Part shown: piece by piece, positions 16,332 through 20,310 of the stretch
How positions within the stretch are numbered: position 1 is the stretch's first letter
Layout of the letters: the number at the start of each line of letters is the position of its first letter
Assembly (NCBI RefSeq): GCF_019048845.1
Contig: NZ_CP077426.1
Span: 295,501 to 359,500, forward strand
DNA length: 64,000 nt
From: Vibrio mimicus
GTDB lineage: Bacteria > Pseudomonadota > Gammaproteobacteria > Enterobacterales > Vibrionaceae
Direction of reading: 5' to 3'
Notes under the pieces: generated by a model
The model's input: the letters and a program-made list of their open reading frames with translations, nothing else
The model's database searches: none
What the model was told of the DNA's origin: nothing
Position numbers and translations under genes: made by a program

Positions 16332-16441
16332 TATCCCTTTCCTACTTGACGCAGCAATGATGTTTATTTCACACCAATTACATTATCTATGCTCATGGGG
16401 ATGAACTCACTGCGCCTACCTGCAATTACAAGTCGTTTTGG
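16332..16441 (-). repeat. Dispersed Vibrio intergenic repeat, copy A
   Basis: Read on the minus strand this shares long blocks with the copy at 18705-18812, for example GTGAGTT-ATCCCCATGAGCAT. It ends in a GGGATA-like terminus at 16332-16338; its other end abuts the stop codon of the hydrolase gene. The overall pattern (a CCCAAA-type beginning, TTGCAG, CCCCATGAGC and an AAGTAGGAAAGGG-type end) is that of a widespread palindromic repeat I recall from Vibrionaceae and Yersinia genomes. Its termini are more decayed than those of copy B. Confidence 0.7.
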
Positions 16442-16443
16442 CC

Positions 16444-17760
16444 TTACTCTATATTAACATCGTAAGCTCCCGTTGTTGCATCGTTGCTTACGTTAACCTT
16501 GAACAGAGTATGCGAAGGTGTTGAGCCTGTTGCAGAACCCAGTTGAACGGTACGAGTGCCGAGTACGCCATCTCGCCATGAAGAGAGTTGGATAGTGGCG
16601 GTACGGCCTTCAGCGCGTGAATAATTAGCGACAGAGATGGTGTAAATTCCCGTTTGCAGCTTGTTGATATCACAAGAAGCAAAATAATGTTCAGGCCCAT
16701 TCGCGACCGTATTATCTACGTCTAAATAGCCTGTTGATCCTGTGAGATTTGAATAGTAAACATGTGAACCATTCGGTTCATAAGTGTGCAAATCGACATC
16801 CCCTGGGCCATCCCAAGTCAGAGTCGCAGTGAAAAATCCCGAAGAGGCTTGAGCCGGAGGGGAGACCAGAGTATCTAGTGCGTGTTGGATATGTGAATTA
16901 ACACGGTTTGCAACAGAAAGCGCACCGTTAATATAAATTTCGATAAAACCATGACCTAATGGATCGCGTTTACCATTGGTACCTGCTGGGCGCAGCAAAT
17001 AGCCAGGGATGCTATCGGTGTTATCGGCGACATTCCCCGTCAATCTCAGTCCGTTGATCACAAGATCGAGATCGGCGAGCGAGTGAGGGCCTGATAAACG
17101 TGGAGAAGCTGGTGCAATATGGACCACACTGACCGATTCTCCTGGTAGAAGCCTGAGCGCGTAGTCATAGGCTGGATTAACAAATAAGTTACCTTGCGAG
17201 TGAGCAACAAACAGTAGTTTTTTCCCTTCTAGTGCCCAGTTTTCAATCCGTGCTCTATGTTCTGCGTAGTTGACATTGGTAGGGGGATTTCCAAAACTGC
17301 CTGTGAGCAAAGCAATGGTTTTTGCCTTAGTCCATTCAACAAATCCCTCAAGAATACCTGCTGTACTACTGACGGTATCAATAATTTTCCGCCACCATGG
17401 GCCATCGCCTCTGATCGCTTCGAAGAAGAGTTCAAAACGTCCTTCCAACAGCGCACCATGTTCGAGCAAGCGTTGTTCAAAAGTTTCAACAAAATCTTCA
17501 AACCCAGCGGTGTAGTTATACAACAGCTCGTAACGGATGGGTTCTTCTTGTGCATTCTTTACACCATGAATACGCTTGAGTTCAAAAAGCGACATAGTGG
17601 CTTGAAGAGCTGTATTTTGCACACCATTAAAAAAACCAACGACAATGCCATTATCTTGGCAGGCGGAAGGGGGTGTTTGAGCTACAGCAGAGGCGGGAAT
17701 ACTGAATATCAGTAGAAGCGCTAAGGAATAGTGCAACATAATCTGAATGAGTTTATTCAC
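16444..17760 (-). CDS. Secreted alpha/beta hydrolase-like protein with C-terminal DUF2135-like domain
   Basis: Exported protein of 438 residues, function unknown. Signal peptide at about residues 9-28 (LHYSLALLLIFSIPASAVAQ). A hydrolase-like domain contains VAHSQGN with putative nucleophile Ser188, a nearby DLDLVINGL acid region, and DPLGHGF with a candidate catalytic His270. From about residue 311 a beta domain begins LTWDGPGDVDLHTYEPNGSH, the pattern of DUF2135/YfaP-type modules that may bind metal or ligand. The start is a GTG at 17760 with AAGGAGAAACTT upstream. It overlaps the stop of the preceding chitin-binding-like gene by 8 bases (17753-17760), so the two are translationally coupled. 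The substrate could be a lipid, an ester or a polysaccharide decoration; I cannot choose. Confidence 0.7.
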   Translation of the reverse strand: MNKLIQIMLHYSLALLLIFSIPASAVAQTPPSACQDNGIVVGFFNGVQNTALQATMSLFELKRIHGVKNAQEEPIRYELLYNYTAGFEDFVETFEQRLLEHGALLEGRFELFFEAIRGDGPWWRKIIDTVSSTAGILEGFVEWTKAKTIALLTGSFGNPPTNVNYAEHRARIENWALEGKKLLFVAHSQGNLFVNPAYDYALRLLPGESVSVVHIAPASPRLSGPHSLADLDLVINGLRLTGNVADNTDSIPGYLLRPAGTNGKRDPLGHGFIEIYINGALSVANRVNSHIQHALDTLVSPPAQASSGFFTATLTWDGPGDVDLHTYEPNGSHVYYSNLTGSTGYLDVDNTVANGPEHYFASCDINKLQTGIYTISVANYSRAEGRTATIQLSSWRDGVLGTRTVQLGSATGSTPSHTLFKVNVSNDATTGAYDVNIE

Positions 17761-18547
17761 AAGTTTCTCCTTCTGGAATAGCCCAAGTCGTTCCATCAAG
17801 CGCTTTGTTAAAAGCTAAATAAGTAGTTAAGCGTAGTTTGGTATTTGATGTGATAGATTCAATTTCCTGGATAACGTTGGATGGAGATTTTAATTGGCTT
17901 GGACTATTAAACCGATCATAAATACAACTGATGGCTCTCGTGTTATCTCTGTTGGATTTTTTAACTAAGATAATATCTGTTGTATCAACAGAAAGAGAGT
18001 TTTGCAGACTTTTCGCCAATTGTTGTACGGCTTTTTGTTGCGATAGTTCGGGATAGTGGAATTCGATAAATAGATCGATGTCATCACGAATGCCATTTTG
18101 ATTATCGTCAATGCCCAATAAAGATTCTTCTCTTTCTAAATTGGGAATTATTTGGTTCTGAGTCAATTCATCTATTTTATCTTGGTCAGAAACCGGCAAA
18201 TTGATATTTAATTTAAGCCAGACATTATCAGAGCTAGGATTCGCTTTTTGGTTCCACCAGCGAGCCAAATAAAACTGTTGTTGGTATTTAACGATTTGTC
18301 CACCTTGATAAGCTTGTGAATTATTCCAATCGTTGACCTGATCTATATTTAAAATAACCCACCCGTCCCAACTTTTACCATTGGGTTGAGGTTGCTTATT
18401 TATATTCCAATAAGTTGCGACATAAGTGGTACTGTTCAACTCTACAATATCACCAGCGACATAAACCGTATTCTTCTCCCACGTATTCATAGCATGAGCT
18501 ATGCTGCTAAAGAATAAGAAAATCCATATGATGAATCTAAATTTCAT
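17753..18547 (-). CDS. Secreted protein with two chitin-binding-like modules and a Ca-loop-like motif
   Basis: Exported protein of 264 residues, function unknown. Signal peptide about residues 1-19 (ends SSIAHA). Two modules of the CBM5/12 type follow: about 21-68 (TWEKNTVYVAGDIVELNSTT, YVATYWN) and about 72-114 (NDWNNSQAYQGGQIVKYQ, FYLARWWN), with the aromatic pattern of chitin/cellulose binders. Residues 147-158 (DDNQNGIRDDID) resemble a calcium-binding loop. The C-terminal part (about 159-264) matches nothing I can name and has two cysteines. ATG 18547 follows AAGGAG. Base composition is visibly AT-richer than neighbouring genes, and the gene overlaps the hydrolase gene. Likely a partner that brings the hydrolase to a surface or substrate (inference). 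Confidence 0.7.
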   Translation of the reverse strand: MKFRFIIWIFLFFSSIAHAMNTWEKNTVYVAGDIVELNSTTYVATYWNINKQPQPNGKSWDGWVILNIDQVNDWNNSQAYQGGQIVKYQQQFYLARWWNQKANPSSDNVWLKLNINLPVSDQDKIDELTQNQIIPNLEREESLLGIDDNQNGIRDDIDLFIEFHYPELSQQKAVQQLAKSLQNSLSVDTTDIILVKKSNRDNTRAISCIYDRFNSPSQLKSPSNVIQEIESITSNTKLRLTTYLAFNKALDGTTWAIPEGETCE

Positions 18548-18704: not shown

Positions 18705-18812
18705 CTATACCCAAACGGTTTGGAGTTGCAGCTAAACGGTAAGTGAGTTTATCCCCATGAGCATGACAGGGCAGAACGAACGTAACCAATATTGCTAGTT
18801 GGAAGGGTATAG
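18705..18812 (+). repeat. Dispersed Vibrio intergenic repeat, copy B, with terminal inverted repeats
   Basis: 108 bases bounded by CTATACCC (18705-18712) and GGGTATAG (18805-18812), an 8-bp perfect inverted pair. The interior contains TTGGAGTTGCAG and GTGAGTTTATCCCCATGAGC, shared with copy A on the opposite strand. It has no coding capacity, so it looks like a MITE-like or palindromic repeat. Confidence 0.75.
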
Positions 18813-18897: not shown

Positions 18898-20310
18898 TTA
18901 TTGTGCTTCGTGCAGTACGCTGCCCCACAGGTCGTATTCATCGGCGTGTTCGATCACAACGTTAACCAGCTCACCCGGTTTCAGGTTGGTTTCACCGTTG
19001 AGGTAAACCAAGCCATCAATTTCCGGTGCATCGGCGTAAGTACGGCCGATCGCGCCTTCTTCATCGACTTCATCAACCAGCACTTGCATGGTGCTGCCGA
19101 TGCGTTTTTGCAGTTTGGCAGCACTGATCTCTTGTTGCACCAGCATAAAGCGTTCGAAACGATCTTGTTTCACGTCTTCTGGGATTTGATCTTCAATCTC
19201 GTTCGCTGCTGCGCCTTCAACTGGCGAATACTTAAAGCAGCCAACGCGATCGAGTTGTGCTTCTTTCAGCCAATCGAGCAGGATTTGGAAATCTTCTTCA
19301 GTTTCGCCCGGGAAGCCCACGATAAAGGTGGAGCGGATCACGAGTACTGGGCAGATCTCACGCCATTTTTTGATGCGCTCTAAAGTGCGCTCCGCTTGCC
19401 CCGGACGCTTCATCATTTTTAGAACACGAGGGCTGGCGTGTTGGAATGGAATATCCAAGTAAGGCAGCACTTTTCCTTCTGCCATCAATGGGATGATTTC
19501 ATCCACATGTGGGTAAGGGTAAACGTAGTGCAGACGAACCCAAATGCCCATCTTGCCCAGCTCTTCACTCAGTGCTTTGATGTTATGGCGTACAGGAGAA
19601 CCGTTAGCGAAACCTAAGCTGTGTTTGGTATCCACACCGTAAGCACTGGTGTCTTGGCTGATCACGAGCAGCTCTTTCACGCCAGCGTTTTTCAGACGTT
19701 CTGCTTCACCGATGATTTCACCTACAGGGCGGCTGACTAAGTCCCCACGCATCGATGGGATGATGCAGAAAGTGCAACGATGGTTACAGCCTTCAGAAAT
19801 CTTCAGGTAGGCGTAATGCTTTGGTGTCAGTTTTACCCCGTGATCGGGCACTAGGCTGGTAAACGGGTTATGGGCTGGTTTTGGTGCAAATTGGTGTACA
19901 TGCTCCAACACGTTTTGGTAAGCGTGTGGGCCTGTAATACCGAGTACATTCGGGTGTACTTGGCGAATTTCATCTTCGCGTGCACCTAGGCAGCCAGTCA
20001 CAATCACTTTGCCATTTTCTTTCAGCGCTTCGCCAATGGTATCCAGAGACTCTTGTACCGCACTATCGATAAAACCACAGGTGTTGACGATCACCACATC
20101 AGAATCGTGGTAGCTGTTGACGATTTCATAACCTTCGGTGCGCAGTTGGGTCAGAATGCGTTCTGAGTCCACTAAGTTTTTTGGGCAACCTAAGGAAACA
20201 AAACCAATTTTATTGCCAGTGGTTTGGCTGCCTTGGCTTTGCTCTGCGATGGTTTTTTTCGCCGTTTCCAGAGTCGTGGTTTGATTTGGCGTAAAAGTCT
20301 GAACTGTCAT
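18898..20310 (-). CDS. rimO: Ribosomal protein S12 methylthiotransferase RimO
   Basis: RimO is a radical-SAM enzyme that adds a methylthio group to the conserved Asp of ribosomal protein S12. The 470-residue product has an N-terminal UPF0004 domain ([32 protein letters not shown] supply the three Cys of the auxiliary cluster). The radical-SAM domain follows with [18 protein letters not shown] (CxxxCxxC). A C-terminal TRAM domain (about 400-465) completes it. The first 30 or so residues are a low-complexity extension, Thr/Gln-rich, so a shorter start is possible. It is a single gene with its own terminator. Confidence 0.95.

Follow-up and report, generated by a model that had tools for sequence, protein, structure and literature searches.

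A hydrolase gene (H) and a partner gene (P), lying on the minus strand of the window (the whole 64,000-nucleotide stretch of Vibrio mimicus DNA analysed here), were found to form a near-obligate pair, with P adjoining H on the same strand at 83/85 loci. It was the best reading of these data, held at about an even chance, that the two genes constitute an effector–immunity module, in which H is a Sec-exported, probably T2SS-exported lipolytic effector and P is its immunity protein. The toxicity, substrate, binding, inhibition and T2SS passage are what we infer for the H–P module. An earlier sequence-only reading of the window had taken the pair for a secreted enzyme with a chitin-binding-like partner; its observation was confirmed, and its interpretation was partly supported. 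The two genes and the features of H are as follows.

17753..18547, minus strand: partner gene P, 264 aa (ORF call, Pfam, model and family comparison)
16444..17760, minus strand: hydrolase gene H, 438 aa, GTG start
17753..17760, minus strand: H–P gene overlap GTGAATAA, 8 nt
16861..17661, minus strand: alpha/beta-hydrolase domain of H, about residues 34–300
17197..17199, minus strand: Ser188, nucleophile candidate (AHSQGN)
17065..17067, minus strand: Asp232, acid candidate
16951..16953, minus strand: His270, base candidate
16447..16842, minus strand: C-terminal beta-sandwich of H, weakly DUF2135/YfaP-like by sequence and TerD-like by fold

The claims that the two minus-strand genes overlap by 8 nt and that both products are exported were borne out by the open reading frames and by the signal peptides read by eye at the N-termini of both H and P. 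That of H comprised residues 1–27, and its N-terminus MNKLIQIMLHYSLALLLIFSIPASAVAQ reads by eye as a Sec signal. The unit had also been described as AT-richer than its neighbours, which agreed with the GC content of 0.35–0.39 across P and its upstream region and 0.44–0.48 across H, as against a value near 0.50 for most of the flanking DNA. In those of the 40 aligned H relatives that possessed an in-frame upstream extension, it resembled by eye an out-of-frame P end, indicating that the gene overlap is old. At E<=0.001, 954 relatives of H were obtained among 7,996 candidates scored. For P, 12 relatives were obtained with a single-sequence query and 200 with an alignment query, among 7,997 scored.

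The alpha/beta-hydrolase fold found for H, with its nucleophile elbow and alpha/beta core, upheld the earlier assignment of a Ser-hydrolase with an AHSQG elbow. At the level of sequence, the candidate residues Ser188, Asp232 and His270 were invariant in 40/40 aligned relatives. No Pfam or NCBIfam family was matched by the window H. Cutinases and lipases topped the list of its structural matches, in which other esterases were also present. The Foldseek search with the model, part of which was poor, gave nothing at E<=0.001, and the first row was PlaB (E of 1.1e-3, probability 0.33). Pfam DUF676, a putative serine esterase family, was weakly matched by 21/40 relatives at E<=1 (best 0.0039), and the single match to Pfam Tle3 (1/40, E of 0.12) was at chance level. 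As for the tail, which had been called DUF2135-like, a weak likeness in sequence was seen, but there was no DUF2135 Pfam match above the cut-off. H is distinguished from cutinase/lipase-type alpha/beta-hydrolases and from Legionella PlaB by matching no Pfam or NCBIfam family and by having a beta-sandwich tail and a partner. The most likely activity of H was concluded to be that of a lipolytic serine hydrolase, with Ser188, Asp232 and His270 as candidate residues.

The pairing was examined at 85 loci, comprising the best 80 of 93 H relatives from a scan of species genomes and five loci from an order-level search; two of them (L002 and L081) look like one locus. The sequence-only reading had held that the genes form a conserved pair, and this was corroborated by the 83 paired loci, of which 67 had P first and 16 had H first. 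The two exceptions were L073, where H was near a contig end, and L102 (5611–7014), where H and the P end were in one open frame, apparently by deletion. At L069 and L070 H was split and P adjoined its first piece, and at some loci (e.g. L075 and L104) P was cut by a contig edge. More than one P match was observed at 10/85 loci: five at L091, four at L051 (two of which look like pieces of one), three at L087, and two each at L065, L068, L071, L078, L088, L093 and L106. L065, L068 and L071 had a second, partial H as well. When the neighbouring genes were clustered, without annotation, no family was common to more than 7 loci, and at this level no tie of the pair to a delivery machine or to a T6SS spike or adaptor was seen. 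Among the matches listed from the open-licence literature, no title or abstract opening named the H–P pair.

The partner is built from the following parts.

18350..18490, minus strand: first CBM5/12 module of P, about residues 20–66 (model ranges 18–64 to 20–66)
18197..18346, minus strand: second CBM5/12 module of P, about residues 68–117
17756..18193, minus strand: conserved P core, helical 'NGIRDD' domain, residues 119–264
18074..18109, minus strand: Ca-loop-like DDNQNGIRDDID, family signature, P residues 147–158

The two CBM5/12-like modules reported earlier in the window P proved to be genuine, being above the curated Pfam cut-off and supported by the predicted fold; the model of the first matched the CBMs of chitinases and chitin deacetylases. 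The core matched no family beyond the CBMs. Among 64 aligned partners, R154, C208, T236 and R239 were invariant. The window P showed a plain signal peptide by eye and no lipobox. Most other partners were lipoprotein-like and had no CBM, and CBM5/12 was found in 9/151 partners, one of which (P0007) was a fragment without a start. Three further CBM-bearing partners were encoded at the distant loci L199, L202 and L205, and none of these twelve had a lipobox. By a strict pattern, a lipobox was present in 0/9 CBM-bearing partners versus 108/142 of the others, with a Fisher p of 6e-6, which is too small because the partner sequences are related. The strict pattern misses some clear lipoboxes, and a looser lipobox-like pattern was found in 74/85 partners. 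Under the enterobacterial rule for the residue after the lipobox Cys (+2), rarity of Asp suggests the outer membrane; this residue was Asp in 2/116.

The N-terminal additions of P varied between relatives. Close relatives, including those of Photobacterium and Plesiomonas, retained the CBMs, and shorter ones had none or a remnant. The distant Vibrio pairs L199, L202, L205 and L206 had CBM-bearing partners with the same layout as in the window, the CBM part being 34–44% identical to that of the window and the core 21–29%. These observations demonstrated that CBM5/12 is an occasional add-on outside the conserved pair, and that it is a module accompanying the absence of a lipobox. Because the two go together, the CBM modules may have taken the place of the lipid anchor of P in the lineage of the window.

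P was found more widely than H. Among 227 Vibrio genomes, the H alignment matched 36 and the P alignment 65 at E<=0.001. Since many weak matches were tail or motif matches, the counts were taken at E<=1e-15; P rows weaker than this were left out, and 8/41 H rows were dropped (G178, G249, G021, G462, G499, G469, G425 and a second piece in G443), those of the seven genomes named first being mostly tail-type matches in long frames. For P, no more than 14 first-look candidates were scored in each Vibrio genome, and its counts are therefore lower bounds. On this basis P was present in at least 32 genomes, H in 23 and both in at least 22. The only genome with a strong H and no strong P (G298) had a divergent CBM-type P directly upstream of H (L199). 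At least 9 of the 32 strong-P genomes had no hydrolase-domain match, although one of the nine, G469, had a tail-type H row (E of 1.2e-5). At the genome level in Vibrio, then, H was never found without P (23/23, counting the divergent P of G298) and P was found alone (9/32), which is the pattern expected of an effector–immunity pair; outside Vibrio, the corresponding figure for H with P is the 83/85 loci given above.

Further readings were consistent with this asymmetry. Of 48 strong P copies, 27 lay within 1.5 kb of an H match and 21 farther from any H counted; three of the latter belong to an array in G488, which has five P ahead of one H. H was split, degraded or truncated beside P at L195–L198 (G299, G455, G440 and G199), and the P of L196 (G455) also carried a stop. 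When 30 loci (L178–L207, the first being that of the window) were read, 27 had a hydrolase-domain H, and P neighboured H at 26 of these. At the exception, L200, the nearest P was about 3.6 kb away, so that the rule of no H without P is true at the genome level and not at every locus. It had been supposed that the enzyme and its binding partner are made in a fixed ratio, which does not fit the loci with several P per H or the genomes with P and no hydrolase. The Ca-loop-like DDNQNGIRDDID pointed out in the sequence-only reading turned out to be a family signature: G145, D147, R154, D155 and D156, together with C208, T236 and R239, were kept in 28/28 further P copies that reached 150 aa or more; 22 of these copies lay in stretches with no H match, and two had the same protein sequence. 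Some orphan P copies were very divergent.

Both genes were also found in mobile settings. Another genome of the same order, G010, had five P matches and no H match; four of these P were mutually similar, one of them broken, and lay in a cassette-like array. Two segments of this region searched for repeats contained a 157-nt repeat 11 times and a 189-nt repeat 10 times, and the region is like a chromosomal cassette array. In Acinetobacter pollinis the pair was carried by two contigs, 5.2 and 5.4 kb long, which end in identical stretches of 199 nt and, in our own reading, contain relaxase-like frames. Among 72,556 plasmid records, H was matched by 21 (in 12 of these the match covered 80% of H or more) and the P core by 29. 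Plasmid pAeme3 of Aeromonas media carried P and H with an 8-nt overlap. An Aeromonas caviae plasmid encoded a P identical to it at 172/180 residues, with DNA 97.2% identical over 636 nt, ending about 100 nt into H; beside this ~100-nt stub, no H match was found elsewhere in the 8.4-kb stretch. Two more Aeromonas plasmids had the same kind of P match and no H match in a plasmid-wide search, and plasmids of Acinetobacter baumannii and Thiomicrorhabdus had P matches and no H in the stretch. A comparable displacement of an effector with its immunity gene kept is described for the V. cholerae T6SS in passages of Kirchberger et al. (PMC5361080).

Carriage as phage cargo was rejected: a relative of H was encoded by 0/38 pattern-matching stretches of viral_contigs, and in the phage collection 9 records matched the H tail domain only. 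P occurred in 2 viral contigs, with no H match in the stretches fetched. One 62-kb viral contig (L221) had two P-like domains in one frame. A repeat-flanked mobile unit was likewise rejected as a general feature, with flanking repeats at 15/72 testable loci versus 13/213 control placements; the signal was strong at L034 and L069 only.

With regard to the secretion route, GspD was searched at the curated cut-off in 29 H-bearing genomes, which contain the 30 loci chosen from the 80. It was above the cut-off in 27/29 (G527 was just below and G529 had none) and in 2/14 named control genomes; in the order to which one of the H-bearing Campylobacterota MAGs belongs, the background was 59/149 genomes, the 27/29 and 59/149 being raw counts that ignore kinship. 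All 7/7 H-bearing MAGs titled Campylobacteraceae or Helicobacteraceae (G507, G510, G511, G517, G519, G521 and G526) were over the cut-off, and 0/2 Sulfurovum H-bearing MAGs were. Judged by GspD, most of these hosts of H possess a T2SS, as is expected for T2SS cargo. The association favours T2SS export of H, short of proof.

In the proposed mechanism, H would be exported by Sec and would fold in the periplasm, from where the type II secretion system would probably carry it out of the cell. P would be a dedicated partner of H, located on the periplasmic side and in most cases a lipoprotein; it would bind H via the NGIRDD helical domain and keep it inactive in the producing cell. Cells losing H could keep P as protection against neighbours. 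To our knowledge, it is chiefly from T6SS that lipase effectors paired with lipoprotein antidotes have been reported. The module resembles T6SS Tle/Tli pairs such as Tle3–Tli3, in which a serine alpha/beta-hydrolase is matched by its own lipoprotein in the outer membrane or periplasm, and an outer-membrane lipoprotein that neutralises a phospholipase is described in PMC9860674. Immunity genes standing alone or in arrays have also been described for T6SS pairs (PMC5361080). The differences are that H has a Sec signal by eye, which a T6SS effector of this kind would lack; that the phospholipase effectors with lipoprotein immunity in the literature consulted use the T6SS, whereas no link to a spike or adaptor was seen for the H pair among the clustered neighbour families; and that Tli3 has stacked beta-sheets (PMC9860674), whereas the P core is helical.

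The main rival takes H for an ordinary extracellular lipase or esterase exported by T2SS and P for a membrane-bound chaperone dedicated to its folding or secretion, in the style of LipB–LipA or CpaB–CpaA. LipA/LipB and CpaA/CpaB are like the H–P pair in joining an exported hydrolase to an adjacent dedicated helper, T2SS chaperones are encoded beside their cargo in the account given in PMC4713064, the genes overlap, GspD accompanies H as above (27/29) and P is helical, usually with a lipobox. We nevertheless consider this rather improbable. P, mostly with a lipobox and an unrelated domain, does not look like a T2SS helper with an N-terminal transmembrane anchor, the domain attributed to the published T2SS chaperones in PMC4713064. 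P is moreover kept without H, with its core residues, in at least 9 Vibrio genomes and on plasmids and other mobile DNA; it occurs in divergent tandem copies, and is retained where H is truncated. No lipase-chaperone family was present among the 25/64 Pfam families listed for 64 partners. It is unlikely that P plays the double part described for Tli towards Tle in Enterobacter cloacae (PMC10294624), activating H as well as restraining it; this would combine the coupling with the asymmetry, but nothing in the analysis points to activation or to a cytosolic form of P.

A chitin- or surface-polymer-associated activity of the pair had been suggested in the sequence-only reading; taken as P anchoring H to chitin or peptidoglycan, it was not supported and is quite unlikely. 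The two genuine modules of the window P and the same layout in L199, L202, L205 and L206 speak for it, but CBM5/12 was found in only 9/151 partners, most others being lipoprotein-like, and the structural list of H consists of cutinases, lipases and other esterases. Chitinases and chitin deacetylases share Pfam CBM_5_12 and its fold with the window P, but in the H–P pair the module sits on the partner, not on the enzyme. We regard it as very unlikely that the asymmetry reflects an independent role of P in the envelope instead of immunity, with H a later companion. Such a role would fit the varying N-terminal additions and the many loci where P stands alone with its conserved residues, some of these being very divergent. 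But H is rarely without P, and strong P does not behave like a core gene: it is patchy (at least 32/227 Vibrio genomes) and turns up on plasmids and within a cassette-like array. Effector–immunity explains the pairing, the asymmetry, the tandem P and the P kept beside a lost H better than a chitin aid or a chaperone does. Against it, CBM modules would be unusual in an immunity protein, some very divergent orphan P copies may have another role, and the overlapping upstream P and the GspD co-occurrence fit a secretion chaperone equally and are compatible with a dual role as well. The Foldseek outcome for H, the T6SS route of the described lipoprotein-immunity pairs, the distant P of L200 and the high background of GspD also count against it.

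More tentatively, and with some doubt, the pair may represent a so far unrecognised and widely distributed family of lipolytic antibacterial effectors that are exported by Sec/T2SS and have helical lipoprotein immunity, mobile on plasmids and chromosomes, leaving orphan immunity genes behind, and with polysaccharide-binding modules able to replace the lipid anchor. If true, a Sec/T2SS-exported effector–immunity pair would extend bacterial competition to the general secretion route and would provide a testable function for many 'hypothetical proteins', such as the H relatives counted above. The Aeromonas plasmids offer a ready comparison of the pair with the antidote alone.

Several side observations were made. 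A 906-aa Vibrio protein (L008, 607–3327, minus strand; the same protein in L204) showed two CBM5/12-like modules, a DUF2135-like part and an end that by eye looks D,D-carboxypeptidase-type. Frames with a LGEFND/LGDFND motif, nuclease-like by eye, lay upstream of the CBM-type partners (L199, 138–692; L206, 61–348), much as xds lies near the window pair; downstream in L199 and L206 were transposase-like frames. The rimO-like protein at 18898–20310 of the window had relatives of 51–74% identity in 6/12 other genomes of the order, and 18 other genomes of the same genus searched gave only matches of about 29–32% (MiaB-level), so that it seems patchy in the genus. L034, a 3.1-kb contig whose title gives a very high coverage, had a 122-nt repeat, 95% identical, directly flanking the pair (248–369 and 2260–2375), with a VapC-like frame adjoining by eye. 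The window pair itself was bracketed by two copies of a repeat.

16340..16446, minus strand: dispersed Vibrio intergenic repeat, left copy, Rfam V_AS5 model 1–129, 29.8 bits
18705..18807, plus strand: dispersed Vibrio intergenic repeat, right copy, Rfam V_AS5, 29.4 bits

Both matches were below the Rfam gathering score of 96. This V_AS5-like repeat looks like the ERIC type of enterobacteria and Vibrio. With up to 2 mismatches allowed, its core was found at 19 genomic sites, compared with 0 for a reversed control pattern, and the left copy covers the H stop codon (16444–16446). The copies are inverted relative to each other, with 23-nt arms (16389–16411 and 18742–18764) that are 96% complementary, a layout that could in principle permit inversion of the segment.
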